Origin: Spinacia oleracea
Taxonomy: Eukaryota > Streptophyta > Magnoliopsida > Caryophyllales > Amaranthaceae
NCBI RefSeq assembly: GCF_020520425.1
Contig: NC_079487.1
Span: forward strand, 11,703,501 to 11,767,500
Direction: 5' to 3'
DNA length: 64,000 bases
The position numbers and the translations under genes are program-made. Every line of letters starts with the position of its first letter. Position 1 is the stretch's first letter. The notes below the pieces were generated by a model. That model was not told the DNA's origin. It searched no databases and was given only the letters and a program-made list of their open reading frames with translations. Shown here piece by piece: positions 1,254-54,006 of this stretch.

Positions 1254-1254
1254 G

Positions 1255-1268
1255 TGGTATCACGAGCC
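1255..1268 (+). promoter_or_regulatory. Copia-A primer binding site (initiator tRNA-Met type)
   Basis: TGGTATCACGAGCC begins one base after the LTR end. The first 8 bases complement the 3' end of initiator tRNA-Met. The usual plant PBS continues GAGC directly; here one extra C separates TGGTATCA from GAGCC. The same form occurs in Copia-B and Copia-C. Confidence 0.85.
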
Positions 1269-4156
1269 CCTTATTATTTTCATAATCTAAATTGCATGAA
1301 CATGGTTAAATATTACAAATTTGCAAGAATTAAAAGGGGTGATTAATTTTCGTAATTGTTAATTAATTGCAAATTGCGTTTATTTAATTATACGTACGCA
1401 GTTTTTCGGCAGTTTCTTCGTTACTCATCCGAATTGAGTGATTTTTGTGTCAATTCCGCATGTAAAAGGCATTCTAAAATTTTGACAAAAACAGTATTTT
1501 TCTGCCGAACCCAGAATTCTCAAATTCGAAGCCTAACTATGACTTTTCGAAGGTTTTAGTTTTTCGAATGCAAAATTTCGTAAATTTAAGATGTTAAATT
1601 AAATATTTGCGATTCTTGTTGATAAATCTTGAATTTTTGATTGACCTACTGCATATGTTTAACAAGTTTGAATGCCTAGTCTTGTTAATTATGCAATCTA
1701 ATTTGTAATTATGATTAATTTGTTGAAAATTAGAATAATTTAGAATTAATTTGATTTTCATAATTAATTGTAATTTAATTAGAAACCTATGATTAAAAAC
1801 CACCATAAAAATTGTAAATTTACGATAAATTTTAAATTTTTATGACCTAGACTTGAATCCATATCAATCGGAAATCAATGGGATAATAAATTTTCGATTT
1901 TTTCGCCCTAAAATTATGAAATTAATAATATTTATTAATTTGTCATTAATTTTAAATATAAATTTTAAATTTTTTATGCGATTCGTTCATATAACTTGCA
2001 CGCACAAAGCAATGGACGCTTCGTGTTACCCTTAAGGGGTGTTGCATAATGCGGGCATGCGACGACGAGCAAGGGAGCTCGTCGCCCATGCGGCACGAAT
2101 GCAATGAGCAAGGGCGTAGTGCACGAGCACAAGGCAGCAGCCCTGCCTTGTGTCGTGTGCCACGAGCAATGAACGAATGGGCATGGGCGAAGGGCGAGCC
2201 AAGGCAGTCGCGTGTGGGCAGCAAGCGAGCTGCGCCACAACGCGCGCTGCCTCGCACAAGAGCGCGCAGCGAGCGCAAGCTCGCGTGCCACGAGCGCTGC
2301 GCCCAGCATTACTCGCGCGCACAGCGAGCGATGTCGCCCGCCCAGCGAGCGATGTCGCGCCCCCAGCGAGCGATGGCTCGCGCGCACAGCGAGCGATGTC
2401 GCGCGCCCAGCGAGCGATGTCGCGCGCCCAGCGAGCGATGTCGCGCGCCCAGCGAGCGATGGCTCGCGCGCCCAGCGAGCGATGGCTCGCGCGCCCAGCG
2501 AGCGATGGCTCGCGCGCCCAGCGAGCGATGTCGCGCGCGCGCACTGCGAGCGATAGCTCGCGTGCGATGAGCGCTGGCGCACGCAGCGAGCACCAATGCG
2601 TGCGGAGGCTTGCGATAGGGAAGCAGCAGCTATGCGACGAGCGCATGGGCTGCGCGCACATGGCCAGCAATGGCTGTGTGCGTACGGCCCATGGGCGTGC
2701 AACGCGTAGGGTGTTTGCGTTACGATTAGATCGTTTTGAATGTTTAATTTGAAAATTTCAGTTCACGTAATTTTAATTAATTTTAAAATTAATAATTTAA
2801 ATTATTTTCTTGGATTTTAATTTTGAATATTATAATTATAATAAATGTTATTTATTCTAATTATTTTACTAAAATTAAAATCATGAATTAATTTAAATAC
2901 GACTGAAATTAAATTAAATTTTTGGATTCAATTATAAATTGATATGAGCTTTAAATTTTAATTAAATTTGTATGTTTCCGGTTGGACTAGAAATACATTT
3001 TTATGTTTAAAATTAGTAAAGCATATAAATTTATTGGTTTAAGTGGGAGCGCTTTTTAGTCATAAACTCTTGATTAGGTCTACAAATCGTTAAGGTTAAA
3101 ACAACTTGATTAGAATTAATAAGGACTGAATAATTGGTAGATTATTGGTGCCCTTGATTAATTGCTGCAAATGTTTACGTGATGCATAATGTGTTTTACT
3201 AACCAGCTATGTGGGCCATTCATGATAATGAATGGGTGAATGGTATATATTGTATATGTACTGTTTTGCAGGTTATGAAGTGACTAGTATGGCCCAAATA
3301 GGATAGAAAATATGGTATGCGTACCATTAATTTGAATGTAATTGGTCTAAAGTACCAAAGTTATTTTTCAATTCAAATATGGTCTGCGAACCATCAAATA
3401 GTTGTAATTAGTTATAGCTTACCTATTTGAAGAAAATGGTGCCTCCCACGGAGATTTTCAAGACGGACTTTGAAGTCAAAGCTTCAAGATGAAGTCGGGC
3501 CATACTAGATCACAAATATCTTATGCATGTTTTAAGTTATTTATTGTTTTAAATATGTCTTAAAATGCATGAGATCAAAAGCTTGATTATGTTGCATGAT
3601 TAAGGATTTTAGTTCACTTAAAATCTAACCAACATAGTAAGAGCCTTAAGTTCCAAACTTAAAAATTGAGTTAAAAGGTGCCATGCCAAAATATACACTT
3701 GCTTGGATATCCTTTACATCAATCTAGTAATAGTTTTCGCTCAGCGAGGTGTTACTTATTGGTCCTAAAGGGGCAAGGTACACAAATAATTGTGAGTACA
3801 TGTTAGTTTTGGTGAAACTCAACGATATAAGTAAGGAGTCCTTTTATGTCGTGGCAAATTCGATAGGTTTACCTAATAAGTTCTTAGACGTACCTATCAA
3901 CCAAGAATAGTTTCTAGACTATTAGCAAAAGGCTTTTGCTTACCTAAGATGTTCTAGGATTAAGTCGACAAACTGTGCTTAGTTCTTCAATGATTTTAGG
4001 ATCTTGGAATCATTTTATTCACACCTGCCGGAACACATAATTTGAATAAAATGCTTAATAAACATTGAATTATGCATGTATGCTAGAATTTAAGTTTATT
4101 AAGAGAAACTGTGAATGGTTATTTATTTGTTTATTCTTTTCAATTGTAGTTTTAAT
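1269..4156 (+). other. Copia-A 5' leader, about 2.9 kb, non-coding
   Basis: This AT-rich leader between PBS and gag is broken by one GC-rich block (about 2010-2720) that contains the hairpin minisatellite. Short ORFs in it are not conserved and run through the repeat on both strands, so I regard them as chance. Two places look like 3' splice sites: TACTGTTTTGCAG before 3273 and TTCTTTTCAATTGTAG just before the gag ATG. The leader may therefore be spliced in part; this is inference only. Confidence 0.7.
2313..2565 (+). repeat. Hairpin minisatellite in Copia-A leader
   Basis: Tandem units of 21-23 bp share the core GCGAGCGATG followed by GCTCGC or TCGCGC. The GCTCGC form is a perfect 6-bp stem (GCGAGC/GCTCGC) with a GATG loop; I count four such units here, mixed with the shorter GATGTCGCGCG variant. 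The array has no stop codons in several frames, which produces long Ala/Arg/Ser-rich shadow ORFs on both strands. Confidence 0.9.
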
Positions 4157-7100
4157 ATGGCAAACAACAATCAAAACATCATCATGGGTTCTGAGCTTAT
4201 GGTCAAGCTGAACCTGACAAATTTTCTTGAATGGGAAGCTAAGCTAGTTGAAATAGTCAAACTCAATGGACTAGAGTATGTACTGTCACATCCCATGCCA
4301 AGCTACTATGCCAGAGACATGACCCCTGAGAGATTTTACGCCTGGGATGCAGATCTCAAAAAGGTTATGAGTCTCATGCTGAACAATATCCCTGATGATT
4401 GGGCTAAAAGGTTTGTAGCCTATGAACCTTTTACGCTCATCAAGAATCTGAGGGATATCTGTCGTGGAAGTACGGAGGACAGGGACCTGAACGTCCATGA
4501 ATCAATGTCTGGTCTAAAGGTTAGTTCTCCCAACAGGTGTTATAGGATGGAGGTCCAAGAAACACATGTTCAGCTCCTTCGCACTAAACAGAGGGTAGGC
4601 GTCCCACTGAGGTTCCATGTGGATCTTATGTGTTCATATTTTGATCGCCTAAGTCTACTAGGAACACCAATAAGCGAAAGGATGGCAGTCTCTGTCTTGC
4701 TCAATTCACTGCACAGTGGGTTTGGTCGCTTCAAGCAACTATACCTAAGTGAACCAAGAGAAGAAACAGTTGCAGAATTTATTCACCTTGTCAGAAAGGC
4801 TGAAATAGTACTGGACTGTGAAGCCAAAGATTTACTCAAGGCTAGAAAGAGACCATTCAAGGAAGGTGGAAAGTCCAAGGGCAATGCTAAATCAAAGCAG
4901 GACAAGTCCACATCAAGCTGTCTTTATTGTGATGGAATAGGCCATTACAAAAGAGAATGTCCAAAGCTAAAGGAAGATCAGAAGAACGGAACAGTCGTTC
5001 CATCTTCAGGTATTTTCGTTATAGACTGTATACTTGCTAATTCAACTTCTTGGGTATTAGATACAGGTTATGGCTCACACTTATGTTCCAATCCACAGGG
5101 ACTAAGAAGAAGTAGAAAGTTAAGCAAGGGTGAAGTCGACCTACGAGTGGGAAATGGAGCACGGATTGCTGCATTAGCTGTAGGAACTTACTATTTGTCG
5201 TTGCCCTCCGGGCTAGTTTTGGAACTGGAAGAATGTTTCCATGTTCCAAGTCTTACTAAAAACATCATTTCAGTTTCTTGCTTAGATGCTAAGGGATTTT
5301 CCTTTTTAATAAAAGACAATAGTTGTTCGTTTTATTTTAAAGAGATGTTTTATGGATCTGCTAGATTAGTCAATGGACTTTATTTATTAGATCACGACAA
5401 ACAAGTATATAACATAAATACCAAAAGGGCCAAAAAGGATGATTCAGATCTCACCTATCTGTGGCATTGTCGATTAGGCCATATAAACTTGAAACGCTTA
5501 GAAAGACTTCAAAAGGAAGGAATTCTAGAACCATTTAACTTAGAGGATTATGGTAAATGCGAATCATGTTTACTTGGCAAAATGACAAAGCAACCTTTCT
5601 CTAAAGTTGGAGAAAGAGCAAATGAACTATTGGGTTTAATCCATACAGATGTATGTGGACCAATGAGTACAAATGCTAGAGGTGGTTTCAGCTACTTTGT
5701 CACTTTCACTGATGACTTCAGTAGGTATGGTTATGTCTACCTAATGAAGCATAAGTCTGAATCCTTTGACAAATTCAAGGAATTTCAGAGTGAAGTAGAG
5801 AATCAATTAGGCAAGAAGATTAAGGCACTGCGGTCTGATAGGGGCGGTGAATATCTGAGCTATGAATTTGATGACCATCTGAAAGAATGTGGAATTCTAT
5901 CAGAGTTGACTCCTCCTGGAACACCACAATGGAACGGTGTGTCGGAACGGAGGAACAGAACCTTGCTAGACATGGTCAGGTCAATGATGGGTCAGGCCGA
6001 ACTTCCATTAGAATTTTGGGGACATGCACTAAATACAGCTGCACTCACTATAAATAGAGCTCCGTCTAAAGCTGTCGAAAAGACTCCATACGAATTATGG
6101 TTTGGAAAGCCTCCAAATGTGTCTTTTCTTAAGATTTGGGGATGTGAAGTATACGTCAAACGATTAATTTCAGACAAACTTCATCCAAAATCTGACAAAT
6201 GTATCCTTGTGGGCTATCCAAAGGAAACAAAGGGGTATTACTTCTACAATACATCTGAGAACAAAGTGTTTGTTGCTCGAGATGGTGTCTTTTTGGAGAA
6301 AGATCACATTTCCAAAATGACAAGTGGGAGAAAAGTAGACCTCGAAGAAATTCGAGTCGAACAACAAACTCTAGAGAATGCTCAAGATGACATTCAGGAT
6401 GAAACTCAGAGATCTTTAGAAGAATCTGGTGAGAATCATGGTCAATCTAGAAATGTTACCCCGCGTAGATCGCAAAGATATAGATCTCAACCGGAAAGAT
6501 ACTTAGGTATTTTGACGAACGAGAGCTATGACGTTCTATTACTTGAAAGTGATGAACCTGCGACTTACAAGCAAGCTATGACGAGCCCTAGCTCCAAGCA
6601 GTGGCAAGAAGCCATGCAATCTGAATTAGACTCCATGTCTGAAAACCAAGTATGGGATTTGGTCGATTTGCCAGATGGCTACCAAGCCATTGGAAGCAAA
6701 TGGGTTTTCAAACTGAAAAAGGACAAGGATGGGAAACTTGAAGTTTTCAAAGCTAGATTGGTTGCAAAAGGTTACAGGCAAGTCCACGGTGTGGATTACG
6801 ATGAAACCTTTTCACCAGTTGCAATGCTAAAGTCTATTCGAATAATGTTAGCAATCGCTGCATATTACGATTACGAAATATGGCAGATGGATGTCAAAAC
6901 TGCTTTCTTAAACGGCGTTTTAACAGAAACTGTGTTTATGACACAGCCTAAAGGTTTTGAGGATCCAAAGAATGCTAAAAAGGTATGCAAGCTAAAGAAG
7001 TCAATCTACGGATTGAAGCAGGCATCCAGGAGCTGGAATATACGTTTTGATGAAGCAGTCAGTGACTTTGGTTTCATCAAGAACGCGGACGAATCTTGTG

Positions 7101-8134
7101 TATACAAGAAGGTCAGTGGGAGCAAAATTGCTTTCCTAGTATTATATGTCGACGACATATTGCTTATCGGAAATGACATTCCTATGTTGAACTCTGTCAA
7201 GATTTGGCTTGGGAAATGTTTTTCGATGAAGGATCTAGGAGAAGCACAGTACATATTGGGCATCAAGATTTACAAAGATAGATCTAAAAGGATGATTGGA
7301 CTTAGTCAAAGCACTTATATCAATAAGGTGCTTGATAGGTTCAAGATGGCGGACTCCAAGCGAGGCTACCTACCCATGTCTCATGGAATGACTCTAAGCA
7401 AGACTCAGTGCCCAAAAACACTTGATGAGCGTAGACGAATGAATGGGATTCCATATGCATCATTGATTGGTTCAATAATGTATGCTATGATATGTACACG
7501 CCCGGATGTTGCGTACGCACTCAGTGCTACGAGCAGATACCAGTCAGACCCAGGAGAGGCGCATTGGACTGCTGCCAAGAACATTCTGAAGTACCTGAAA
7601 AGGCACAAAGATGACTTCCTGGTCTATGGTGGAGATGATGAATTAATTGTTAAAGGCTATACGGACGCAAGTTTCCAAACCGACAAAGATGATTTCAGAT
7701 CACAGTCTGGGTTTGTCTTCTGCCTCAACGGAGGAGCAGTAAGCTGGAAAAGTGCTAAGCAAAGCACCATTGCGGATTCTACAACTGAAGCGGAGTACAT
7801 TGCTGCACATGAAGCAGCAAAGGAAGCTATATGGCTAAGGAAGTTCATAGGAGAACTTGGTGTAGTCCCCTCCATTAAAGGACCAATAGCCCTGTATTGT
7901 GATAATAACGGAGCTATTGCACAGGCAAAAGAGCCTAGACACCACCAGAGAGTCAAGCATGTACTTCGTAGATTTCACCTTCTACGAGAGTTCGTTGAAA
8001 GAAAAGAAGTCGAGATAAGCAAAATTGGAACTGATGACAACATATCAGATCCATTAACTAAACCTCTGCCGCAAGCGAAGCACAACTCGCACACTGCAGC
8101 TATGGGAATCAAGCATATTGGAGAATGGCTTTGA
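4157..8134 (+). CDS. Copia-A gag-pol polyprotein, intact, divergent gag
   Basis: A single open frame of about 1325 aa from the ATG at 4157 (MANNN), the start shared with the other two copies. An in-frame ATG at 4115 would add 14 residues but is not conserved. Gag ends with a CX2CX4HX4C zinc knuckle at residues ~255-268 (CLYCDGIGHYKREC). Protease has DTG at ~302 (DTGYGSH, where the other copies have DTGCGSH). The GAG-pre-integrase His/Cys motif starts at ~435. The integrase DDE triad is near residues 497, 561 and 597. RT has YVDD at ~997. RNase H spans ~1165-1300 with TDAS, TEAEY and YCDNN. I see no stop, frameshift or catalytic loss. From the residues just after the zinc knuckle onward it is almost identical to Copia-B and -C, but the gag is homologous only distantly. 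Confidence 0.95.
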   Translation: MANNNQNIIMGSELMVKLNLTNFLEWEAKLVEIVKLNGLEYVLSHPMPSYYARDMTPERFYAWDADLKKVMSLMLNNIPDDWAKRFVAYEPFTLIKNLRDICRGSTEDRDLNVHESMSGLKVSSPNRCYRMEVQETHVQLLRTKQRVGVPLRFHVDLMCSYFDRLSLLGTPISERMAVSVLLNSLHSGFGRFKQLYLSEPREETVAEFIHLVRKAEIVLDCEAKDLLKARKRPFKEGGKSKGNAKSKQDKSTSSCLYCDGIGHYKRECPKLKEDQKNGTVVPSSGIFVIDCILANSTSWVLDTGYGSHLCSNPQGLRRSRKLSKGEVDLRVGNGARIAALAVGTYYLSLPSGLVLELEECFHVPSLTKNIISVSCLDAKGFSFLIKDNSCSFYFKEMFYGSARLVNGLYLLDHDKQVYNINTKRAKKDDSDLTYLWHCRLGHINLKRLERLQKEGILEPFNLEDYGKCESCLLGKMTKQPFSKVGERANELLGLIHTDVCGPMSTNARGGFSYFVTFTDDFSRYGYVYLMKHKSESFDKFKEFQSEVENQLGKKIKALRSDRGGEYLSYEFDDHLKECGILSELTPPGTPQWNGVSERRNRTLLDMVRSMMGQAELPLEFWGHALNTAALTINRAPSKAVEKTPYELWFGKPPNVSFLKIWGCEVYVKRLISDKLHPKSDKCILVGYPKETKGYYFYNTSENKVFVARDGVFLEKDHISKMTSGRKVDLEEIRVEQQTLENAQDDIQDETQRSLEESGENHGQSRNVTPRRSQRYRSQPERYLGILTNESYDVLLLESDEPATYKQAMTSPSSKQWQEAMQSELDSMSENQVWDLVDLPDGYQAIGSKWVFKLKKDKDGKLEVFKARLVAKGYRQVHGVDYDETFSPVAMLKSIRIMLAIAAYYDYEIWQMDVKTAFLNGVLTETVFMTQPKGFEDPKNAKKVCKLKKSIYGLKQASRSWNIRFDEAVSDFGFIKNADESCVYKKVSGSKIAFLVLYVDDILLIGNDIPMLNSVKIWLGKCFSMKDLGEAQYILGIKIYKDRSKRMIGLSQSTYINKVLDRFKMADSKRGYLPMSHGMTLSKTQCPKTLDERRRMNGIPYASLIGSIMYAMICTRPDVAYALSATSRYQSDPGEAHWTAAKNILKYLKRHKDDFLVYGGDDELIVKGYTDASFQTDKDDFRSQSGFVFCLNGGAVSWKSAKQSTIADSTTEAEYIAAHEAAKEAIWLRKFIGELGVVPSIKGPIALYCDNNGAIAQAKEPRHHQRVKHVLRRFHLLREFVERKEVEISKIGTDDNISDPLTKPLPQAKHNSHTAAMGIKHIGEWL

Positions 8135-8998: not shown

Positions 8999-10409
8999 TG
9001 AAGGAAATAATGCCCTTGGTCCAAGTATGCATTCTATATTAAGTCTAATAAATGCGGTTCAGTATTAATTAACAAGTTAATAATTCAGTGAGATCAAGTG
9101 AGCTGAATGCCTAGCTAGAGGCCGCTTCAGTTCAAGTGGAATTAATGATATTAATCCACAGCTTACTCTTGACTGAACCCGTAGGGTCACACAAATAGTA
9201 CGTAAACGGATCAAGTATTTAATGGCATTAAATACTCCATCTATGAATATTCGGAACCGACGGATCTTGGTTTCAGTGGGAGCTAAGATCGTCACAGGCA
9301 AGGAATGAATACTCCGGAAACGATGATATTGCCGGAAACGGAAATATGGATCGTATCGGAAATATAAATATTATCCAAGTCGTAGATGTTGCCGGAAACG
9401 GAAACATGGTACGTGTCGGAAAATATTATCGGAAATGGAAATATTGCCAGAATCGGAAATATTGCCGGAAACGGAAATATTGTCAGAATCGGAAATATTA
9501 CCGGAATCGGAAAATAATTCCGGAAACGGAAATATTAAATATTTGTTCGAAACGGAAATTAATTCCGGAATCGGAAATATTAAATATTGTTCGTATCGGA
9601 AATGAATTCCGGAATCGGAAAATTTAATCGGAAGCGCATCGTACGAATAAGCATCGGACGAGGCCTGCCGGACGAGGCCCAGCACGAAGCCAGGCCATCG
9701 CCTAGCAAAGCCAAGCGCGCCGCACAAACAGCCATGCCAGGCCCAGCGCAAGGCCAGGCCCAGCAGGCTGCGCGCAGCGCGCAGCGCGCACAGCGCGCAC
9801 AGCACACGCAGCGCGCGCGGGCGCTGAGTGGGCTGCTGCTCGCGCGCACGCATGGGGCCCATCGTGGCTGCCGTGCGTGTGTGTGCAAGTGTTTGTGTTC
9901 GTGCACGTTTCCTAAAACATGCAGAGTTCGGTTAATGATTAAATTCCTAATTCTATTTGATAAATTAATTAAATTAGAGTTCTTGTAGAATTCTAGGTTT
10001 AATTAATTTGTATCTGAATAGGATTTCGATTCCCTTTCCATACCGCTATAAATATGAGGCTAGGGCTCACAATTTATAACACAAGTTTCAAAGTATTCAA
10101 AGTGAGTTTTGAGAGAAAAATTCAGTCACACATTTGCCTATAAAGTGCCGAAAATAATAGTACCTTAAGGGCGATTCTAGTTGGTCAATCTTAAGGCGGA
10201 TCCGGACGTGCTGTGGACTATCTACGGAGGGACGACACTTGGAGTCCTAAAGACTTGTTCTTGTTCGGTTCGGGCGCAGCTAGGGAAGGCACGCAACAAA
10301 GAGTATGCATCTAATCTATGCTAAATGATTATGTGTAAATAATATGTTTTCCTGGGTTTATGGTTTTTCCGCATGATTTATGAATTGTCATATGTATCAT
10401 AACCTAACA
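8999..10409 (+). repeat. Copia-A 3' LTR (1411 bp)
   Basis: Begins TGAAGGAAATAATGCCC and ends CATAACCTAACA, giving the expected TG...CA ends. TATA box at 10047-10054. CGGAAA-rich array at about 9290-9631, GC-rich U3/R segment at about 9655-9850. It matches the 5' LTR except for one base. Confidence 0.96.
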
Positions 10410-10414
10410 GTTAG

Positions 10415-10531: not shown

Positions 10532-11887
10532 TTATTTTCCCTTGTCGCTCAACAGTTCCTTTAGATGCCCCCGTTTCAGGAGGTATGCGACTTCCTTTCT
10601 GAGGGAGATGCACTCCTCGGTTGTGTGTCCGTTGTCGCGGTGGAAGTCGCACCATTTGCTCATGTCCTTCATGGAGTCCGGTCTGTCGTTCTTCCGGGGC
10701 CATCTGACTGTTCCACCTACATTTTGAAGGGCGTTCATCACACCTCCAATGTCGACGTTGAAGCCGTAGTCGGAGATGTTAGGGTGTTCGACCCGCTCGT
10801 TCCTGTAAACATTGTTAGTATCATAATACTTATTGACACTTTGTACCTGGTTTTGCCGAACATATGGTTGGTGTCGCCAATTGTTGTTCCTTGGGGTGTA
10901 CGATCTTCTGTCGCTGCTGCCCCCTATCGATCGTTGAGATGCTGTTCGGATAACCTCGTCGTCTTCGATTCGCATCTGGGCGGTGGCCCTTGATCGCACC
11001 TCTTCGAAAGTTGCACAGGGGTATTTGGTTTTTTCCCGGTATAGCTCCGAATTGGGGATGAGGCCTCTCTTGAACGCCTCAATAGCAGTCCTGACATCAC
11101 AATTTTTTATACCAATTTTTTCACAATTAAAACGGTTAAAATAATCGCGTACCGACTCGGTTGGCCCTTGAACCAACCGATAGAGATCACTGGTTTGTTT
11201 TTCTAACTGGCGACTGCTGGCGAATTGTTGATAGAAGGCGTTGATGAGGTCGGACAAACAGGAGATGGATTTGGGAGGGACGTTCGTGAGCCATTCCAAA
11301 GCTGCTCCATCAAGGGTGCCGCCGAATGATTTGCACATAACAGGTTCCACTAGGTCGTGCGGAATCCCGATCTGCCACATGCGCTGCTTGTAGAAGTTGA
11401 CGTGCCTATAGGGGTCGGATATCCCGTCGTACAGGGTGGTCCAGGTTGGGAGCCGGAGTGTGTGCGGAACTGTCACTCTAGCGATCGCTTCGCAGAACGG
11501 CGACGCGGCATACCCGTCGGTCGGCTCGGTCTCCACTGGTGTAGGTGCCCCGGGGAACCTGGTCATCAACTTCATCAGGCGGGAATAGTGCTTTGTCATG
11601 CGTGCATCCATCTTGTTCAGGCGTTGGGTCACCGGATCGGGAGCTTCTTTGTCTTCTTCCTCACGGGTTTCCTCCTCATCGTCGGTCACATCTTCAAAGT
11701 CATCGGGCATCTCGAACGTTAGCTTTTTTGGCTTCCCACCTTTGTAGCGGGACTGGTGCTTGTTGCTCTTTACAGATTCGAGCTCTTTCTGGAGGGTTTC
11801 ATTGGATGCCCTCTCTTGGGCTAGCTCGGCTTGGGCTTTCTCGTAAGCCGCCTTCATCTCTGCGATCGTCATCTCTCCAGTAGTCAT
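10532..11887 (-). CDS. Gypsy (Tat-type) Gag, 451 aa
   Basis: The open frame starts at ATG 11887 (MTTGEMTIAEMK), close behind the PBS, as expected for gag. The N-terminal ~60 residues are a charged coiled-coil-like segment, followed by an acidic stretch. The capsid-like retrotrans_gag region covers roughly residues 140-290 (ALEWLTNVPPKSISCLSDL, FNRFNCEKIG). The C-terminal CX2HX3GHX4C knuckle is WCDFHRDNGHTTEEC. It packages element RNA in the cytoplasm in related families. The frame is unbroken, but the element cannot be complete because Copia-A interrupts it. Confidence 0.88.
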   Translation of the reverse strand: MTTGEMTIAEMKAAYEKAQAELAQERASNETLQKELESVKSNKHQSRYKGGKPKKLTFEMPDDFEDVTDDEEETREEEDKEAPDPVTQRLNKMDARMTKHYSRLMKLMTRFPGAPTPVETEPTDGYAASPFCEAIARVTVPHTLRLPTWTTLYDGISDPYRHVNFYKQRMWQIGIPHDLVEPVMCKSFGGTLDGAALEWLTNVPPKSISCLSDLINAFYQQFASSRQLEKQTSDLYRLVQGPTESVRDYFNRFNCEKIGIKNCDVRTAIEAFKRGLIPNSELYREKTKYPCATFEEVRSRATAQMRIEDDEVIRTASQRSIGGSSDRRSYTPRNNNWRHQPYVRQNQVQSVNKYYDTNNVYRNERVEHPNISDYGFNVDIGGVMNALQNVGGTVRWPRKNDRPDSMKDMSKWCDFHRDNGHTTEECISLRKEVAYLLKRGHLKELLSDKGK

Positions 11888-28870: not shown

Positions 28871-30241
28871 TGAAGGAAATAATGCCCTTGGTCCAAATAT
28901 GCATTCTATGTTAAGTCTAATAAATGCGGTTCAGTATTAATTAACAAGTTAATAATTCAGTGAGATCAAGTGAGCTGAATGCCTAGCTAGAGGCCGCTTC
29001 AGTTCAAGTGGAATTAATGATATTAATCCACAGCTTACTCTTGACTGAACCCGTAGGGTCACACAAATAGTACGTAAACGGATCAAGTATTTAATGGCAT
29101 TAGATACTCCATCTATGGATATTCGGAATCGACGGATCTTGGTTTCAGTGGGAGCTGAGATCGTCACAGGCAAGAAATGAATACTCCGGAAACGATGATA
29201 TTGCCGGAAACGGAAATATGGATCGTATCGGAAATATAAATATTATCCAAGTCGTAGATGTTGCCGGAAACGGAAACATGGTACGTATCGGAAAATATTA
29301 TCGGAAATGGAAATATTGCCAGAATCGGAAATATTGCCGGAAACGGAAATATTGTCAGAATCGGAAATATTATCGGAAACGGAAATATTAAATATTTGTT
29401 CGAAACGGAAATTGATTCCGGAATCGGAAATATTAAATATTGTTCGTATCGGAAATGAATTCCGGAACCGGGAATTTAATCGGAAGCGTATCGTACGAAT
29501 TAGCATCGGACGAGGCCTGCCGGACGAAGGCCCAGCACGAAGTCGGGCCATTGCCCAGCAAGCCAAACGCGCGCCACAAGCCCAGCCAAGGCAGCGCCCA
29601 GGCCCACCGCAAGGCAGGCCCAGCGCGCGCCAAGGCCACGGCTGCGTGGGCCTCGTGGCGTGGGCTGCTGCTCGCACGCACCCGCATGGGCGGCCCTCGT
29701 GGCTGCCGCGTGTGTGTGTGTGTTTGTGTTCATGCACGATTCCTAAAGCTATTAGGATTTGGTATATGATTAAATTCCTATTCCTAAAAGGATAAATTAA
29801 TTAATTAGAGTTCGTATAGGATTCTAAGTTTAATTAATTCGTATCCTACTAGGATTCCAATTCCCTTTCCATAACTCTATAAATACGTGCCTAGGGTCAC
29901 ATATTTTCAGAGATTAATTCAAGTATTTCAAAGTGAGTTTTGAGAGAAAAATTCAGTCATATTTCTTACCTAAGAGTGCCGAAAATTCTAGTACCTTAAG
30001 GGCGATTCTAGTTGGTCAATCTTAAGGCGGATCCGGACGTGCTGTGGACTATCTACGGAGGGACGACACTTGGAGTCCTAAAGACTTGTTCTTGTTCGGT
30101 TCGGGCGCAGCTAGGGAAGGCACGCAACAAAGAGTATGCATCTAAATTATGCTATATGATTATGTGTAAATAATATGTATTCCTGGCTAAATGGTTGTTT
30201 CCGCATGATTTATGAATTGTCATATGTATCATAACCTAACA
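28871..30241 (+). repeat. Copia-B 5' LTR
   Basis: TGAAGG...TAACA ends. TATAAATA at 29878-29885. CGGAAA/GGAAATATT array at about 29185-29480. The GC-rich segment after it (29505-29720) differs in sequence from that of Copia-A. Confidence 0.96.
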
Positions 30242-30242
30242 G

Positions 30243-30256
30243 TGGTATCACGAGCC
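30243..30256 (+). promoter_or_regulatory. Copia-B primer binding site
   Basis: TGGTATCACGAGCC, one base after the LTR, identical to Copia-A. Confidence 0.85.
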
Positions 30257-33180
30257 CCTTATTATTTTCATAATCTAAATTGCATAAACATGGTTAAATA
30301 TTACAAATTTGCAAGAATTAAAAGGGGTGATTAATTTTCGTAATTGTTAATTAATTGCAAATTGCGTTTATTTAATTATACGTACGCAGTTTTTCGGCAG
30401 TTTCTTCGTTACTCATCCAAATCGAGTGATTTTTGTGTCAATTCCGCATGTAAAAGGCATTCTAAAATTTTGACAAAAAAGAGTATTTTTCTGCCGAACC
30501 CAGAATTCTCAAATTCGAAGCCTAACTATGACTTTTCGAAGGTTTTAGTTTTTCGAATGCAAAATTTCGTAAATTTAAGATGTTAAATTAAATATTTGCG
30601 ATTCTTGTTGATAAATCTTGAATTTTTGATTGACCTAATGTATATGTTTAACAAGTTTGAATGCCTAGCCTTGTTAATTATGCAATCTAATTTGTAATTG
30701 TGATTAATTTGTTGAAAATTAGAATAATTTAGAATTAATTTGATTTTCATAATTAATTATAATCTAATTAGATACCTATGATTAAAAACCACCATAAAAA
30801 TTGTAAATTTATGATAAATTTTAAATTTTTATGACCTAGACTTGAATCCATGACAATCGGAAATCAATTCAATAATAAATTTTCGATTTTTCGCCCTAAA
30901 ATTATGAAATTAATATTATTTATTAATTTGTCATTAATTTTAAATATAAATTTTAAATTTTTATGCGATTCGTTCATATAACTTGCACGCACAAAGCAAT
31001 GGACGCTTCGTGTTACCCTTAAGGGGTGTTGTATAGTGCGGGCATGCGACGACGAGCAAGGGAGCTCGTCGCCCGTGCGGCACGAATGCAATGAGCAAGG
31101 GCATGGTGCACGAGCACAAGGCAGCAGCCCTGCCTTGTGTCGTGGGCCACGAGCTATGAACAAATGGGCATGGGCGAAAGGCAAGCCAAGGCAGTCGCGT
31201 GTGGGAAGCAAGCGAGCTGCGCCACGACGCGCACTGCCTCGCGCAAGCGCGCAGCCTCGCACGCAGCGAGCGCAAGCTCGCGTGCCACGAGCGCTGCGCC
31301 CAGCGATTGATCGCGCGCAATTGCTCGCGCGCACAGCGAGCGATGGCTCGCGCGCACAGCGAGCGATGGCTCGCGCGCAGCGAACGCTGGCGAGCGCGCA
31401 CAGCGAGCGATGGCTCGCGCGCACAGCGAGCGATGGCTCGCGCGCACAGCGAGCGATGGCTCGCGCGCACAGCGAGCGATGGCTCGCGCGCACAGCGAGC
31501 GATGGCTCGCGCGCACAGCGAGCGATGGCTCGCGCGCAGCGAGCGCTGGCGAGCGCGCACAGCGAGCGATGGCTCGCGTGCGTCGAGCGCTGGCGCGCGC
31601 GCAGCGAGCACCATAGCGTGCGATGGCTTGCGATGGAAGATGCAGCAGCTATGCGACGAGCGCATGGGCTGCGCGCACATGGCCAGCGATGGCTGTATGC
31701 GTGCGGCCCATGGGAGTGCGATGCGTAGGGTGTTTGCGTTGCGATTAGATCGTTTTGAATGTTTAATTTGAAATTTTTCAGTTTACGTAATTTTAATTAA
31801 TTTTAAAATTAATAATATAAATTATTTTCTTGGATTTTAATTTTGAATATTGTAATTATAATAAATTTTATTTATTCTAATTATTTTACTAAAATTAAAA
31901 TCATGAATTAATTTAAATACGACTGAAATTAAATTAAACTTTTTGGATTCAATTATAAATTTATATGAGGTTTAAATTTTAATTAAATTTGTATGTTTCC
32001 GGTTAGACTTGAAATACATTTTTATGTTTAAAATTAGTAAAGCATATGAATTTATTGGTTTAAGTGGGAGCCCTTTTAGTCATAAAACTCTTGATTAGGT
32101 CTACGAAACCTTAAGGTTAAAAAAACTTGATTAGAATTAATAAGGACTGAATAATTGGTAGATTATTGGTGCCCTTGATTAATTGCTGCAAATGTTTACG
32201 TGATGCATAATGTGTTTTACTAACCAGCTATGTGGCCCATTCATGATAATGAATGGGTGAATGGTATATATTGTATATGTACTGTTTTGCAGGTTATGAA
32301 GTGACTAGTATGGCCCAAATAGGATAGAAAATATGGTCTAAAGTACCATTAATTTGAATGTAATTGGTCTAAAGTACCAAAGTTATTTTTCAATTCAAAT
32401 ATGGTCTGCGTACCATCAAATAGTTGTAATTAGTTATAGCTTATCCTATTTGAAGAAAATGGTGCCTCCCACGGAGATTTTCAAGGCGGACTTTGAAGTC
32501 AAAGCTTCAAGATGAAGTCGGGCCATACTAGATCACATTTATCTTATGCATGCTTTAAGTTATTTATTGCTTTAAATATGTCTTAATTATGCATAAGATT
32601 GTGGCTTGATTATGTTGCATGATTAAGGATTTTAGTTCACTTAAAATCTAACCAACATAGTAAGAGCCTTAAGTTCCAAACTTAAAAATTGAGTTAAAAG
32701 GTGCCATGCCAAAATATACACTTGCTTGGATATCCTTTACATCAATCTAGTAATAATTTTCGCTCAGCGAGGTGTTACTTATTGGTTCCAAAGGGGCAAG
32801 GTACACAAATAATTGTGAGTACATGTTAGTTTTGGTGAAACTCAACGATATAAGTAAGGAGTCCTTTTATGTCGTGGCAAAATCGATAGGTTTACCTAAT
32901 AAGTTCTTAGACGTACCTATCAACCAAGAATAGTTTCTAGACTATTAGCAAAAGGCTTTTGCTTACCTAAGATGTTCTAGGATTAAGTCGACAAACTGTG
33001 CTTAGTTCTTCAATGATTTTAGGATCTTGGAATCATTTTATTCACACCTGCCGGAACACATAACTTGAATAAAATGCTTAATAAACATTGAATTATGCAT
33101 GTATGCTAGAATTTAAGTTTATTAAGAGAAACTGTGAATGGTTATTTATTTGTTTATTCTTTTCAATTGTAGTTTTTAAT
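30257..33180 (+). other. Copia-B 5' leader, about 2.9 kb
   Basis: Closely similar to the Copia-A leader over its whole length except in the GC-rich minisatellite block (about 30990-31740). The same candidate 3' splice sites are present before the gag ATG and near 32292 (GTTTTGCAG). Confidence 0.7.
31320..31600 (+). repeat. Hairpin minisatellite in Copia-B leader
   Basis: 23-bp units, each with the stem GCGAGC-GATG-GCTCGC joined by GCGCACA. I count nine units with the perfect stem, plus interspersed variants GCGAACGCTGGCGAGC and GCGAGCGCTGGCGAGC. This is the longest of the three arrays. Confidence 0.92.
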
Positions 33181-36100
33181 ATGGCAAACAACAATTCATT
33201 CAACATTCGATCAATTCTCGAAAAGGAGAAGTTGAACGGGAAAAACTTACTTGACTGGCAAAGGAACTTGCAAATAGTTCTTATGCAGGAAGAAAAGGAG
33301 TATGTCCTAGATGAGGCGATGCCCGAAGCCGCAGGCGACGGGGTCACTCAGGCAGCCCTCAATCGTTGGATTGATGCCAACAAGGATGTGAAATGTCTAA
33401 TGCTCGCCACCATGAGTGCGGATCTGCAGAAAACGTTCATCAACTCAGATGCTTTCACAATCATCAATGAGTTGAAGAACATGTTCCAAGATCTGGCTCG
33501 AGTCGAAAGATTCGAGACTCATAGGCAAATTCTTGAGACCAAGCTTAAGAAAGGCGAGCCCGTAACTCCACATGTTCTCAAAATGATTGGACTCATTGAG
33601 AATATGAGTCGGCTGGATCAGCAATTTTCTCAGGAAATGGCTATAGACACCATCCTCCATTCTCTTCATAGCGGGTATGATCAGTTCAAACTGAACTACA
33701 GTATGAATAGTCTGGACAAAACGCTCACTGAGCTTCACGGTATGCTGAAGACCGCTGAAAAGACGCTCAAAAGTGATAAGCAGTATGTGCTTATGGTGCG
33801 TGGGGGCAAGTTCAAGAAATCAGGAAAGAAGAGGAATGCTAAGAAAGGTGGCAACAAGGCCAGCCCAACTAAGCAAACTGGCGCCAAATCTGTAAAGAGG
33901 AAGGTCAGTCAACCCACTTCTGAATCCGAATGCTTCTACTGCAAGAAGAAGGGGCATTGGAAGAGAGATTGCTTGAAGCTAAAGGAAGATCAGAAGAACG
34001 GAACAGTCGTTCCATCTTCAGGTATTTTCGTTATAGACTGTATACTTGCTAATTCAACTTCTTGGGTATTAGATACAGGTTGTGGCTCACACTTATGTTC
34101 CAATCCACAGGGACTAAGAAGAAGTAGAAAGTTAAGCAAGGGTGAAGTCAACCTACGAGTGGGAAATGGAGCACGGATTGCTGCATTAGCTGTAGGAACT
34201 TACTATTTGTCGTTGCCCTCCGGGCTAGTTTTGGAACTGGAAGATTGTTTCCATGTTCCAAGTCTTACTAAAAACATCATTTCAGTTTCTTGCTTAGATG
34301 CTAAGGGATTTTCCTTTTTAATAAAAGACAATAGTTGTTCGTTTTATTTTAAAGAGATGTTTTATGGATCTGCTAGATTAGTCAATGGACTTTATTTATT
34401 AGATCACGACAAACAAGTTTATAACATAAATACCAAAAAGGCCAAAAAGGATGATTCAGATCTCACCTATCTGTGGCATTGTCGATTAGGCCATATAAAC
34501 TTGAAACGCTTAGAAAGACTTCAAAAGGAAGGAATTCTAGAACCATTTGACTTAGAGGATTATGGTAAATGCGAATCATGTTTACTTGGCAAAATGACAA
34601 AGCAACATTTCTCTAAAGTTGGAGAAAGAGCAAATGAACTATTGGGTTTAATCCATACAGATGTATGTGGACCAATGAGTACAAATGCTAGAGGTGGTTT
34701 CAGCTACTTTATCACTTTCACTGATAACTTCAGTAGGTATGGTTATGTCTACCTAATGAAGCATAAGTCTGAATCCTTTGACAAATTCAAGGAATTTCAG
34801 AGTGAAGTAGAGAATCAATTAGGCAAGAAGATTAAAGCACTGCGGTCTGATAGAGGCCGTGAATATCTGAGCTATGAATTTGATGACCATCTGAAAGAAT
34901 GTGGAATTCTATCAGAATTGACTCCTCCCGGAACACCACAATGGAACGGTGTGTCGGAACGGAGGAACAGAACCTTGCTAGACATGGTCAGGTCAATGAT
35001 GGGTCAGGCCGAACTTCCATTAGAATTTTGGGGACATGCACTAAATACAGCTGCACTCACTATAAATAGAGCTCCTTCTAAAGCCGTCGAAAAGATTCCA
35101 TACGAATTATGGTTTGGAAAGCCTCCAAATGTGTCTTTTCTTAAGATTTGGGGATGTGAAGTATACGTCAAACGATTAATTTCAGACAAACTTCATCCAA
35201 AATCTGACAAATGTATCCTTGTGGGCTATCCAAAGGAAACAAAGGGGTATTACTTCTACAATACATCTGAGAACAAAGTGTTTGTTGCTCGAGATGGTGT
35301 CTTTTTGGAGAAAGATCACATTTCCAAAATGACAAGTGGGAGAAAAGTAGAAATCGAAGAAATTCGAGTCGAACAACAAACTCTAGAGAATGCTCAAGAT
35401 GACATTCAGGATGAAACTCAGAGATCTTTAGAAGAATCTGGTGAGAATCATGGTCAATCTAGAAATGTTACCCCGCGTAGATCGCAAAGATATAGATCTC
35501 AACCGGAAAGGTACTTAGGTATTTTGACGAACGAGAGCTATGACGTTCTATTACTTGAAAGTGATGAACCTGCGACTTACAAACAAGCTATGACGAGCCC
35601 TAGCTCCAAGCAATGGCAAGAAGCCATGCAATCTGAATTGGACTCCATGTCTGAAAACCAAGTATGGGATTTGGTCGATTTGCCAGATGGCTACCAAGCC
35701 ATTGGAAGCAAATGGGTTTTCAAACTGAAAAAGGACAAGGATGGGAAACTTGAAGTTTTCAAAGCTAGATTGGTTGCAAAAGGTTACAGGCAAGTCCACG
35801 GTGTGGACTACGATGAAACCTTTTCACCAGTTGCAATGCTAAAGTCTATTCGGATAATGTTAGCAATCGCTGCATATTACGATTACGAAATATGGCAGAT
35901 GGATGTCAAAACTGCTTTCTTAAACGGCGTTTTAACAGAAACTGTGTTTATGACACAGCCTGAAGGTTTTGAGGATCCAAAGAATGCTAAAAAGGTATGC
36001 AAGCTAAAGAAGTCAATCTACGGATTGAAGCAGGCATCCAGGAGCTGGAATATACGTTTTGATGAAGCAGTCAAGGACTTTGGTTTCATCAAGAACGCAG

Positions 36101-37146
36101 ACGGATCTTGTGTATACAAGAAGGTCAGTGGGAGCAAAATTGCTTTCCTAGTATTATATGTCGACGACATATTGCTTATCGGAAATGACATTCCTATGTT
36201 GAACTCTGTCAAGATTTGGCTTGGGAAATGTTTTTCGATGAAGGATCTAGGAGAAGCACAGTACATATTGGGCATCAACATTTACAGAGATAGATCTAAA
36301 AGGATGATTGGACTTAGTCAAAGCACTTATATCAATAAGGTGCTTGATAGGTTCAAGATGGCGGACTCCAAGCGAGGCTACCTACCCATGTCTCATGGAA
36401 TGACTCTAAGCAAGACTCAGTGCCCAAAAACACTTGATGAGCGTAGACGAATGAATGGGATTCCATATGCATCATTGATTGGTTCAATAATGTATGCTAT
36501 GATATGTACACGCCCGGATGTTGCGTACGCACTCAGTGCTACGAGCAGATACCAGTCAGACCCAGGAGAGGCGCATTGGACTGCTGCCAAGAACATTCTG
36601 AAGTACCTGAAAAGGCACAGAGATGACTTCCTGGTCTATGGTGGAGATGATGAATTAATTGTTAAAGGCTATACGGACGCAAGTTTCCAAACCGACAAAG
36701 ATGATTTCAGATCACAGTCTGGGTTTGTCTTCTGCCTCAACGGAGGAGCAGTAAGCTGGAAAAGTGCTAAGCAAAGCACCATTGCGGATTCTACAACTGA
36801 AGCGGAGTACATTGCTGCACATGAAGCAGCAAAGGAAGCTATATGGCTAAGAAAGTTCATAGGTGAACTTGGTGTAGTCCCCTCCATTAAAGGACCAATA
36901 GCCCTGTATTGTGACAATAACGGAGCTATTGCACAGGCAAAAGAGCCTAGACACCACCAGAGAGTCAAGCATGTACTTCGTAGATTTCACCTTCTACGAG
37001 AGTTCGTTGAAAGAAAAGAAGTCGAGATAAGCAAAATTGGAACTGATGACAACATATCAGATCCATTAACTAAACCTCTGCCGCAGGCGAAGCACAACTC
37101 GCACACTGCAGCTATGGGAATCAAGCATATTGGAGAATGGCTTTGA
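33181..37146 (+). CDS. Copia-B gag-pol polyprotein, open frame
   Basis: About 1321 aa from the ATG at 33181 (MANNNSFNIRSILEKEKL). The open frame extends 31 codons further upstream but without an ATG there. Gag has the LNGKNLLDWQRNL and LHSLHSGYDQFK blocks typical of plant Copia gag (UBN2-like) and the knuckle CFYCKKKGHWKRDC. Protease DTGCGSH, integrase, RT (YVDD) and RNase H follow as in Copia-A. No stop or frameshift. Two changes near integrase motifs stand out: SDRGREY where A and C have SDRGGEY, and FTDNFSRY where they have FTDDFSRY. The first replaces a conserved Gly next to the catalytic Asp and may weaken integration. Confidence 0.95.
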   Translation: MANNNSFNIRSILEKEKLNGKNLLDWQRNLQIVLMQEEKEYVLDEAMPEAAGDGVTQAALNRWIDANKDVKCLMLATMSADLQKTFINSDAFTIINELKNMFQDLARVERFETHRQILETKLKKGEPVTPHVLKMIGLIENMSRLDQQFSQEMAIDTILHSLHSGYDQFKLNYSMNSLDKTLTELHGMLKTAEKTLKSDKQYVLMVRGGKFKKSGKKRNAKKGGNKASPTKQTGAKSVKRKVSQPTSESECFYCKKKGHWKRDCLKLKEDQKNGTVVPSSGIFVIDCILANSTSWVLDTGCGSHLCSNPQGLRRSRKLSKGEVNLRVGNGARIAALAVGTYYLSLPSGLVLELEDCFHVPSLTKNIISVSCLDAKGFSFLIKDNSCSFYFKEMFYGSARLVNGLYLLDHDKQVYNINTKKAKKDDSDLTYLWHCRLGHINLKRLERLQKEGILEPFDLEDYGKCESCLLGKMTKQHFSKVGERANELLGLIHTDVCGPMSTNARGGFSYFITFTDNFSRYGYVYLMKHKSESFDKFKEFQSEVENQLGKKIKALRSDRGREYLSYEFDDHLKECGILSELTPPGTPQWNGVSERRNRTLLDMVRSMMGQAELPLEFWGHALNTAALTINRAPSKAVEKIPYELWFGKPPNVSFLKIWGCEVYVKRLISDKLHPKSDKCILVGYPKETKGYYFYNTSENKVFVARDGVFLEKDHISKMTSGRKVEIEEIRVEQQTLENAQDDIQDETQRSLEESGENHGQSRNVTPRRSQRYRSQPERYLGILTNESYDVLLLESDEPATYKQAMTSPSSKQWQEAMQSELDSMSENQVWDLVDLPDGYQAIGSKWVFKLKKDKDGKLEVFKARLVAKGYRQVHGVDYDETFSPVAMLKSIRIMLAIAAYYDYEIWQMDVKTAFLNGVLTETVFMTQPEGFEDPKNAKKVCKLKKSIYGLKQASRSWNIRFDEAVKDFGFIKNADGSCVYKKVSGSKIAFLVLYVDDILLIGNDIPMLNSVKIWLGKCFSMKDLGEAQYILGINIYRDRSKRMIGLSQSTYINKVLDRFKMADSKRGYLPMSHGMTLSKTQCPKTLDERRRMNGIPYASLIGSIMYAMICTRPDVAYALSATSRYQSDPGEAHWTAAKNILKYLKRHRDDFLVYGGDDELIVKGYTDASFQTDKDDFRSQSGFVFCLNGGAVSWKSAKQSTIADSTTEAEYIAAHEAAKEAIWLRKFIGELGVVPSIKGPIALYCDNNGAIAQAKEPRHHQRVKHVLRRFHLLREFVERKEVEISKIGTDDNISDPLTKPLPQAKHNSHTAAMGIKHIGEWL

Positions 37147-37768
37147 TGTCTCTGTTTAATGTTTTAAAGTTTTAGAGTTTAAATCTTTGTAAAACATTAT
37201 TGGTTAATCATTCACAATAAATGAAAAGAATTCATTTTTCCATTTAATTTGTGGTTTATTAAATGATGAGTCCCTTCAATTTGACGATATATTCAAGATA
37301 GACTGTCAGGACCAGTCCTGTGACTAAGAAATGTCTATCAAGTGAACTTGAATGTCAAAGGTTGAAAATGGTCCCTAGTCGGAGTTTTCTATAAAATTGG
37401 ACGCATAGAAAACGTTAGACGATTAGAATGCAAGATGACTAGTAGTTCTGTTTCTTGAACTATGTGGACATGGCAATGTCATAATCATTTGCATAGATAC
37501 TTACTTTGGGAAGACTAGTATCGGACAAGACCTATGAAACTTTACTGTAAGAGATGAAAATCTGTCATAAGTAAATTTCATTAAATTATTAGACACTAAA
37601 TCCTCAATACCTGAGTGATTTGAGATTACTTGTTTGAGAACTGGTTGCTTTGACGTTGACCAACCGTCGCACCGTAAAAGGAGGCTATAAAGGCAACGCT
37701 TACCTTATGTTCAAGAGCAAGCATCGAGCGACAAAGGAATTAGGAAATGCACACTTGTCCCTAAGGAC
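37147..37768 (+). other. Copia-B 3' untranslated region with 231-bp deletion
   Basis: Matches Copia-A 8135-8987 except that the counterpart of 8689-8919 is missing; the junction is at 37700/37701 (GCAACGCT|TACCTTATG). CT occurs at both break ends, so short microhomology may have guided the loss. Confidence 0.85.
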
Positions 37769-37779
37769 AAGTGGGAGAC
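37752..37779 (+). promoter_or_regulatory. Copia-B hairpin and polypurine tract
   Basis: The same CACTTGTCC/GGACAAGTG stem with CTAA loop, merging into AAGTGGGAGA (37769-37778), directly before the 3' LTR. Confidence 0.85.
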
Positions 37780-39151
37780 TGAAGGAAATAATTCCCTTGG
37801 TCCAAGTATGCATTCTATGTTAAGTCTAATAAATGCGGTTCAGTATTAATTAACAAGTTAATAATTCAGTGAGATCAAGTGAGCTGAATGCCTAGCTAGA
37901 GGCCGCTTCAGTTCAAGTGGAATTAATGATATTAATCCACAGCTTACTCTTGACTGAACCCGTAGGGTCACAAAAATAGTACGTAAACGGATCAAGTATT
38001 TAATGGCATTAGATACTCCATCTATGGATATTCGGAATCGACGGATCTTGGTTTCAGTGGGAGCTGAGATCGTCACAGGCAAGAAATGAATACTCCGGAA
38101 ACGATGATATTGCCGGAAACGGAAATATGGATCGTATCGGAAACATAAATATTATCCAAGTCGTAGATGTTGCCGGAAACGGAAACATGGTACGTATCGG
38201 AAAATATTATCGGAAATGGAAATATTGCCAGAATCGGAAATATTGCCGGAAACGGAAATATTGTCAGAATCGGAAATATTATCGGAAACGGAAATATTAA
38301 ATATTTGTTCGAAACGGAAATTGATTCCGGAATCGGAAATATTAAATATTGTTCGTATCGGAAATGAATTCCGGAACCGGGAATTTAATCGGAAGCGTAT
38401 CGTACGAATTAGCATCGGACGAGGCCTGCCGGACGAAGGCCCAGCACGAAGTCGGGCCATTGCCCAGCAAGCCAAACGCGCGCCACAAGCCCAGCCAAGG
38501 CAGCGCCCAGGCCCACCGCAAGGCAGGCCCAGCGCGCGCCAAGGCCACGGCTGCGTGGGCCTCGTGGCGTGGGCTGCTGCTCGCACGCACCCGCATGGGC
38601 GGCCCTCGTGGCTGCCGCGTGTGTGTGTGTGTGTTTGTGTTCATGCACGATTCCTAAAGCTATTAGGATTTGGTATATGATTAAATTCCTATTCCTAAAA
38701 GGATAAATTAATTAATTAGAGTTCGTATAGGATTCTAAGTTTAATTAATTCGTATCCTACTAGGATTCCAATTCCCTTTCCATAACTCTATAAATACGTG
38801 CCTAGGGTCACATATTTTCAGAGATTAATTCAAGTATTCAAAGTGAGTTTTGAGAGAAAAATTCAGTCATATTTCTTACCTAAGAGTGCCGAAAATTCTA
38901 GTACCTTAAGGGCGATTCTAGTTGGTCAATCTTAAGGCGGATCCGGACGTGCTGTGGACTATCTACGGAGGGACGACACTTGGAGTCCTAAAGACTTGTT
39001 CTTGTTCGGTTCGGGCGCAGCTAGGGAAGGCACGCAACAAAGAGTATGCATCTAAATTATGCTATATGATTATGTGTAAATAATATGTATTCCTGGCTAA
39101 ATGGTTGTTTCCGCATGATTTATGAATTGTCATATGTATCATAACCTAACA
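37780..39151 (+). repeat. Copia-B 3' LTR
   Basis: Starts TGAAGGAAATAATTCCC (the T at this point is a change; the other LTRs have TGCCC). TATAAATA at 38789-38796. Ends TAACA at 39151. Confidence 0.96.
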
Positions 39152-41080: not shown

Positions 41081-42446
41081 ATGGATAGAAGTTGGATATC
41101 AAATTCCAAACCTGGTGACCCGCAATATGAAGCTGGAATTAGGAATTTCATTAAATTTGTTGTTGAGCATGCTGGAGATCGTTCAAGGTTACCGTGCCCG
41201 TGTTTCAAATGCCATAATTTTTTGTATAGACCGGTTGATGAAATTCTCGGTCATTTGAGCAAGAATTCTTTTGATAAAACATATACTCATTGGATATGGC
41301 ATGGGTAAAATTATGAAGGAATCACTACTGGTAATTTTGGGAACAATGTTCATGAAAGTCCTAATGATGTTCAAGAATGTTCTAATCTTAATGAGGGTGG
41401 TAGATTAGGGGACATGATACGTTCAGCTCAAGATAAGTTTGATGAAAATCCTTCCGCGTTTCAAGGTTTGTTAAAAGATTCTGAAATGTCGTTATACCCA
41501 GGTTGCAAAAAGTATACAAGATTATCTGCTGTACTTAGATTATATAATGTGAAGGCGGGTCATGGTTTAACTGATAAGAGTTTTGAAGATATACTTGAAG
41601 TAGTCAAAGACTTCCTTCCGGATGATAATGTGTTGCCAAGCCGTAATTATGAGGCTAAAAAGACATTGACCCCGATGGGCTTGCCTTACCAGAAAATTCA
41701 TGCTTGTCCTAATGATTGTGTACTATACCGAAATGAAAATGAAGCGTTAGTAAATTGCCCAGTGTGCAATGCCTCACGTTATAAAGAGAAGGAAGGGGTG
41801 CCGGCTAAGGTTTTATGGTATTTTCCTATAATTCCAAAATTTAAACGTCTTTTTTCGAATGCAGAGGTTGCAAAGAAGTTGACATGGCATTACTATGGTC
41901 GGAATAAAAATGGGTTACTTAGACACCCAGTTGACTCGCCACAATGGAAGTTTATTGATGGAAAATTTCCCGAATTTCGTAAAGAAAAACGGAACTTACG
42001 CCTAGCATTGTCCACAGACGGCATGAATCCATTTGGTTCCCTTAGTAGCACCCATAGTACTTGGCCAGTAATGTTGATTACTTACAACCTACCTCCTTCG
42101 CTATGCATGAAACAAAAGTACGTGATGCTGTCATTGCTAATTTCTGGGCCAAAACAGCCAGGAAATGACATTGATGTGTACTTGGCGCCCCTTATTGATG
42201 ACTTGAAGATATTGTGGGACAAAGGTGTAGAAGTATTTGATGCACACCGAAATGAAATGTTTAACTTGAGAGCAATGCTGTTTTGCACCATTCAGGATTA
42301 TCCGGCATATGGTAATCTTTCAGGGTATACAGTGAAAGGGAAAACAGCATGTCCTGTTTGTGAGGATAGTATGGAGGGGAAACGGTTATCTGCATCTAAA
42401 AAGACAGTTTACCCAGTACATCGTAAATGGTTGCCTATTAATCATC
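41081..42446 (+). pseudogene. CACTA-1 TNP2-like transposase, piece 1 (N-terminal)
   Basis: A TTTGTAG acceptor-like site precedes the ATG at 41081. Residues 1-75 are the transposase-associated domain (MDRSWISNSKPGDPQY, LPCPCFKCHN, THWIWHG). A TAA at 41306-41308 interrupts the frame right after WHG; behind it the same frame goes on unbroken. The Transposase_21 (TNP2) domain follows: CPNDCVLYRNE, CPVCNASRYK, LSTDGMNPFG, YNLPPSLCMK, CPVCEDSMEG. The piece ends in a Pro codon at the MULE-2 junction. Confidence 0.9.
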
Positions 42447-44100: not shown

Positions 44101-44110
44101 ATTAATCATC

Positions 44111-46474: not shown

Positions 46475-46475
46475 G

Positions 46476-46489
46476 TGGTATCACGAGCC
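46476..46489 (+). promoter_or_regulatory. Copia-C primer binding site
   Basis: TGGTATCACGAGCC, with the same extra C as in the other two elements. Confidence 0.85.
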
Positions 46490-53995: not shown

Positions 53996-54006
53996 AAGTG
54001 GGAGAC
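53979..54006 (+). promoter_or_regulatory. Copia-C hairpin and polypurine tract
   Basis: The CACTTGTCC/GGACAAGTG stem is unchanged despite the age of the copy; AAGTGGGAGA at 53996-54005. Confidence 0.85.

Follow-up and report, generated by a model that had tools for sequence, protein, structure and literature searches.

Two deeply different gags on one Ty1/copia backbone in spinach, with evidence for exchange of gag as a block

We analysed a 64,000-nt stretch of the Spinacia oleracea genome (contig NC_079487.1, positions 11,703,501 to 11,767,500; hereafter the window, from whose first letter all coordinates are counted). Its forward strand carries three long terminal repeat (LTR) retrotransposons: Copia-A at the window start, Copia-B (28871-39151) and Copia-C (45110-55370). 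Their domain order, LTR pairs and target duplications place them in the Ty1/copia group; in the Copia-A polyprotein, integrase precedes reverse transcriptase (Pfam rve and RVT_2 at 507-604 and 844-1088 of the frame, respectively). All three look like genuine insertions. Copia-B is flanked by a 5-bp target duplication, AGTTC, and Copia-C by a probable one, AATAG, where the last LTR bases are altered. The 3' LTR of Copia-A (8999-10409) is directly followed by GTTAG, the 5' counterpart of which lies outside the window. Its 5' LTR (1-1253), truncated by the window start, is 99.9% identical to 9157-10411 and ends in CCTAACA, after which GTGGTATCACGAGCC follows. As the initial annotation had held, Copia-A is the youngest element: its LTR pair differs by 1 substitution in 1,252 positions, compared with 4 in 1,370 for Copia-B and 12 in 1,364 for Copia-C; the start of its 5' LTR lies beyond the window.

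Downstream of a long leader (1254-4156), Copia-A has a single open frame (4115-8134) that encodes gag, protease, integrase, reverse transcriptase and RNase H in the order given by Pfam, with gag's own ATG at 4157. The frame is open over 1,339 codons, and Copia-A is not a non-autonomous element lacking pol, of the type of wheat Quinta. The pol portion (4964-8134) encodes a product 98.3% identical to that of Copia-B in amino acid (aa) sequence. The pol of Copia-C contains two stop codons that are private to it.

The gag of Copia-A differs from those of its neighbors as a block. The three gags start at 4157, 33181 and 49176 in Copia-A, -B and -C, respectively, and their first 15 nt, ATGGCAAACAACAAT (4157-4171 in Copia-A), are identical. 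Similarity of the Copia-A gag to the others ends directly after this start and resumes at AAGCTAAAGG (4964 in Copia-A, 33976 in Copia-B and 49971 in Copia-C), behind the zinc knuckle, where AAGCTAAAGGAAGATCAG (4964-4981) is again the same in all three. The intervening block (4172-4961), which comprises the capsid and a CCHC knuckle at 4919-4960, was characterised by DNA and aa identity and by profile and fold matches; we refer to it as the A-type gag. Copia-B (33181-33975; frame, Pfam and window identity) and Copia-C (49176-49970; frame and window identity) carry the B-type gag. In 100-nt windows the A-type gag is 29-63% identical to either B-type gag in DNA (the 29% comes from a 7-nt end window; otherwise 39-63%), values close to those of unrelated DNA, and the A and B gags share 29.6% aa identity. 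Copia-B and Copia-C gags are 98-100% identical to each other.

On either side of this block the difference vanishes. Across pol and the 3' untranslated region (UTR), all pairs are 96.5-100% identical per 200 nt, and private sites number 19, 23 and 30 in Copia-A, -B and -C (3,803 columns), so Copia-A is no more distant there than the other two. The 5' break is likewise sharp, since the final 576 leader columns ahead of gag hold three private sites in each element. Taken together, the shared junctions, the gag window identities, the pol identities and the last leader columns define two sharp breaks. The initial annotation had proposed a gag only distantly similar to those of Copia-B and Copia-C, with two sharp ends, on an otherwise nearly identical element. 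Sliding windows bore out the distance and the sharpness, although the divergent block, 4172 to about 4961, lies slightly inside the limits first proposed. Near-identity outside gag held for pol, but not throughout the leader or the LTR.

Leader windows are 87 to 100% identical among the three elements, with the minimum around a minisatellite, and the 2,669 leader columns hold 66, 28 and 38 sites private to Copia-A, -B and -C. Ten sites private to Copia-A fall within 65 columns at 3515-3580, where Copia-B and -C have none; equal clustering arose in 14 of 2000 label shuffles. The minisatellite is GC-rich with a unit of about 21-23 bp (2292-2595 in Copia-A; repeats related to it lie at 31212-31609 and near 47405-47598), and its length varies between elements. 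The leader carries 74-81 ATGs upstream of the gag start (81 in Copia-A). A splice-acceptor-like stretch (U-rich, then GTAG) occurs at 4120-4156, before 33181 and 49176, and in loci L061-L064, and the leader may act as an intron in the Gag mRNA. A scan of LTR and leader for splice donors gave no convincing common donor; one weak LTR site was common to all three copies, and one further site was found in Copia-A and Copia-B only. Within the LTR, a block at 9718-10157 (Copia-A coordinates) is 36-89% identical per 40-nt window for any pair of elements; on the right it breaks off sharply at 10158, whereas its left edge is gradual. Since Copia-B and Copia-C are as divergent from each other here as from Copia-A, the block does not track the gag split in these three copies; its pattern suggests a second exchangeable or fast-evolving module.

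The A-type gag is still a copia-type Gag, as supported by profile and fold matches. By itself it falls under the Pfam cutoff (18 versus 27 bits), and hhalign to B-type gags scored 99.8. Its predicted fold matches copia and Ty1' capsids, the best match being a copia capsid, with the caution that helical models call for. It is 32% identical to the B gag and 18-31% to other copia gags, and thus has little extra similarity to the B type. Among 560 candidates at E 0.001 in a public protein set there was no full-length polyprotein with an A-type gag, and the A gag alone as query gave 3 of 303. The A type appears there only as short pieces, one spanning the 3' junction (P0041) and one on the leader side (P0042); P0043 is a relative at 44% identity. 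The B-type gag with this pol is already public (P0003; 98% gag identity, with a pol 99.3% identical to that of Copia-A). Scans of viral contigs revealed no relatives.

Both types are abundant in the one genome searched (894 Mb). The A-type gag start has 2,749 exact copies (3,459 with up to 3 mismatches) and the B-type start 5,658, while the exact 26-mer of the shared pol start from 4964 has 8,350 occurrences, and 2,451 were counted for the A-type 3' junction. These totals, which are not paired copy by copy, agree with the two types together accounting for almost every copy that has this pol start. We drew two samples of loci. The top-hit sample, composed of the best 30 matches per gag, is biased toward near-copies of each query; the ATGGCAAACAACAAT start was found in 30/30 A-type and 30/30 B-type loci, and junctions are exact throughout the matches of either gag. 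The interval sample was chosen by hand, at spaced positions, among the first 100 places listed for one contig (C1) and comprises 10 A-type and 10 B-type copies plus the three window copies; because the shared start formed part of its search pattern, it could miss A-type gags that sit on other backbones. Among the loci fetched, no gag intermediate between A and B was found on this backbone. The initial annotation had reasoned that Copia-B and -C would be the recombinants if all relatives with an A-type gag had the same pol. For the loci seen this largely proved to be so: the top 30 A-type matches all have the same two junctions, and all 10 A-type loci of the interval sample share this leader, their pol differing from that of the window copy by no more than 10%. 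Copia-B and -C may equally be the recombinants.

In the interval sample, Kst between gag types (computed without L080 and L082) was 0.95 for gag, which is complete separation, and -0.03 for pol, which is none; the result for pol was unchanged under other choices of rows. In the corresponding pol tree the A and B types interleave, and single clades for the two types were rejected (p 0.001 and 0.0008), as they were in the pooled tree of 40 A and 38 B copies (approximately unbiased [AU] test, p 0.02). Given the supported pol branches, three switches of gag type are required in the interval tree, three in the pooled tree and two in the top-hit tree. Median pol distances in the top-hit sample were 0.7% within A, 1.0% between types and 1.1% within B; those of the leader were 1.1%, 2.1% and 1.9%, respectively. 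Gag labels remain clustered on the pooled pol tree (14 changes versus 27 in shuffles), single clades were not rejected in the top-hit pol tree (30 A and 29 B copies; L052 and L058 dropped), and the leader is weakly associated with gag type in the interval sample with all rows (14/1000), an effect that became smaller when rows were dropped. Within gag, the interval sample held 49 nonsynonymous and 24 synonymous differences and 3 stops for the A type (9 copies, L071 dropped), and 14, 12 and 2, respectively, for the B type (8 copies; L080 and L082 dropped), both small samples. The top-hit loci were chosen by protein similarity, which biases their ratio of nonsynonymous to synonymous polymorphism in gag low, and their pol counts, spoiled by length changes, were left unused.

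The same genome also holds a further family, D, with P0043-type gags, for which no fewer than 150 copies were scored. The D pol is 81% identical to those of A and B in DNA (four loci fetched); at the protein level, compared for one D copy, the figure is 80%. The D gag is 40% identical to the A gag and 29% to the B gag. With three D copies included (the fourth, with a broken knuckle, was omitted), the gag tree is ((A,D),B) and the pol tree ((A,B),D), each with support of 100/100 at the deciding branch. Family D is a sister family, and its gag is the closest kin of the A gag. The separate trees and sharp breaks uphold the proposal that the whole capsid/nucleocapsid unit was replaced by recombination, which sequence comparison strongly supports. 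We give practically no credence to very fast divergence of gag in place without recombination: the A/D gag branch is long, as this would predict, but it demands the alteration of about 70% of the residues, together with an insert of some 26 residues, over a time in which the adjacent pol changed by 1-2%, and the conflict between the trees is fully supported. We regard it as likely that this is one large Ty1/copia family in which a single LTR, leader and pol backbone bears either of two deeply different gags, which have reassorted as a block more than once.

The direction of exchange is less clear. The B-type gag groups as sister of the A and D gags (99/96), and another gag tree joins the A-type gags and P0043 to B (96/95). 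A topology in which this A-type/P0043 group falls outside the remaining ingroup gags was nevertheless not rejected (AU p 0.13 and 0.16; 26 gags), which leaves the A/D branch of uncertain depth. One event may have set a D-like gag on a B-type element, after which A-type copies spread. In the gag tree, 16 of 16 copia relatives of the ingroup carry B-like gags (42-52% to B, 25-31% to A), a count biased by their origin in a search with the B gag, and the top-hit pol tree allows a single A clade. We nevertheless think this course improbable, given that the types interleave in the interval and pooled trees, that the two oldest copies sampled are both A-type, and that diversity is higher among A-type gags than among those of the B type (median 2.0% versus 1.1%, computed after removal of the two oldest A copies and two interrupted B copies). 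The abundance of A-type starts, the interleaving, the two old copies and the diversity of A-type gags speak against the initial view of Copia-A as an odd, recent chimera.

The two old A-type copies, L067 and L071, pair with each other (96/89 in the interval pol tree, 99/89 in the pooled tree) and fall outside all others in pol, so the A type may not be the newcomer. The branch that unites the rest is weak (89/78 and 96/75), and only these two old copies bear on the matter. Together with the A-related gag of family D and the low diversity of B-type gags, they make it conceivable, with somewhat better prospects than the reverse course, that the family began with an A-type gag and later gained the B type, which came to outnumber it. 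No donor family with a B-type gag and a different pol was found here, and the sister position of the B-type gag to the A and D gags means that it may have been in the family throughout. Given a weak branch, and with the gag of D and the diversity of A set against 16 B-like relatives found with the B gag, the evidence does no more than lean toward an A type at least as old on this backbone as the B type.

For reassortment of two gags on one backbone, template switching is a plausible mechanism. RNAs of the two types would be packaged together, helped by their similar leader, and reverse transcriptase would change template within the short stretches conserved at either end of gag; capsid and nucleocapsid would then move as one unit and the enzymes remain common to both types, in an exchange that probably occurred more than once. 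Co-packaging and template switching are a natural explanation because the exchange points are short and conserved in both types and the leader is similar. The 3' exchange stretch, CTAAAGGAAGA, is also present in D copies L061 and L062. Onsen is a copia family of Arabidopsis. Recombination during reverse transcription is reported for it (PMC5668417), a finding that counts against exchange in DNA here, though compatible with it. Such exchange, by ectopic gene conversion among integrated copies, would have thousands of near-identical targets and predicts the same sharp block structure; we consider it the unlikelier route. We also entertain, as a rather doubtful extension, a long-lived capsid polymorphism in which the two Gags are too different to co-assemble, pol is pooled, and type-specific capsid interference, exerted by the host or by defective copies, favors the rarer type.

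Other features of the window were noted as well. Compared with Copia-A and -C, Copia-B lacks some 230 bases in the region from pol to the 3' LTR (37690-37780). Adjoining Copia-A is a reverse-strand frame with a Retrotrans_gag domain (10532-11887; PF03732). Fragments of a tnp2 transposase element (41414-45153, forward strand; PF02992, PF13960) lie ahead of Copia-C, and tandem repeats with a period of about 160 bp fill 56979-57739.

Comparable mosaics are known. In rice, CR2-Osj-B has gag and pol of different ancestry, the exchanged part being gag plus protease at 71-87% DNA identity (PMC4079200), and in Arabidopsis Athila recombinants, which also differ in gag and pol ancestry, it takes in just part of gag (PMC2410132); here, unlike in either, the differing block is gag as a whole. 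Tnt1 subfamilies, described as evolving modularly, combine a variable LTR module (U3) with a conserved coding body (PMC1838419). The present family likewise has a variable LTR block, but its gag too differs as a block. Gag variants with conserved flanks are known from einkorn wheat, where RLG_Quinta A and B, non-autonomous partners of the centromeric element Cereba, have gags of about 65% DNA identity within flanks above 90%, and template switching was inferred (PMC11302176). Unlike Quinta, the present elements are Ty1/copia, have pol in frame and differ more deeply in gag. No two-gag polymorphism in a plant Ty1/copia family was found in titles and abstract openings, mostly of literature available without subscription. 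Classification by reverse transcriptase conceals the history of gag, and in this family the capsid gene would act as an exchangeable cassette on a common retrotransposon body in thousands of copies.

The closest parallel is a gag-limited mosaic, that of Ty1 and Ty1' in Saccharomyces, in which divergent gags sit on otherwise near-identical LTRs and pol, the types coexist and recombine, the gag is reported to derive from a different species, and control of copy number is specific to gag type (PMC7055915). As in yeast, gag and pol phylogenies conflict, breakpoints lie at the gag open reading frame, and both gag types reside in one genome; unlike in yeast, the Gags are about 30% identical in aa sequence, occur in thousands of copies and have no known restriction factor. 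The yeast Ty1/Ty1' Gag pair are closer to each other than the present A/B pair. If the two capsids do not mix, the family offers a natural system for frequency-dependent selection on capsid identity in plants, selection of the kind to which gag-specific restriction in yeast Ty1/Ty1' is reported to point (PMC12530519).
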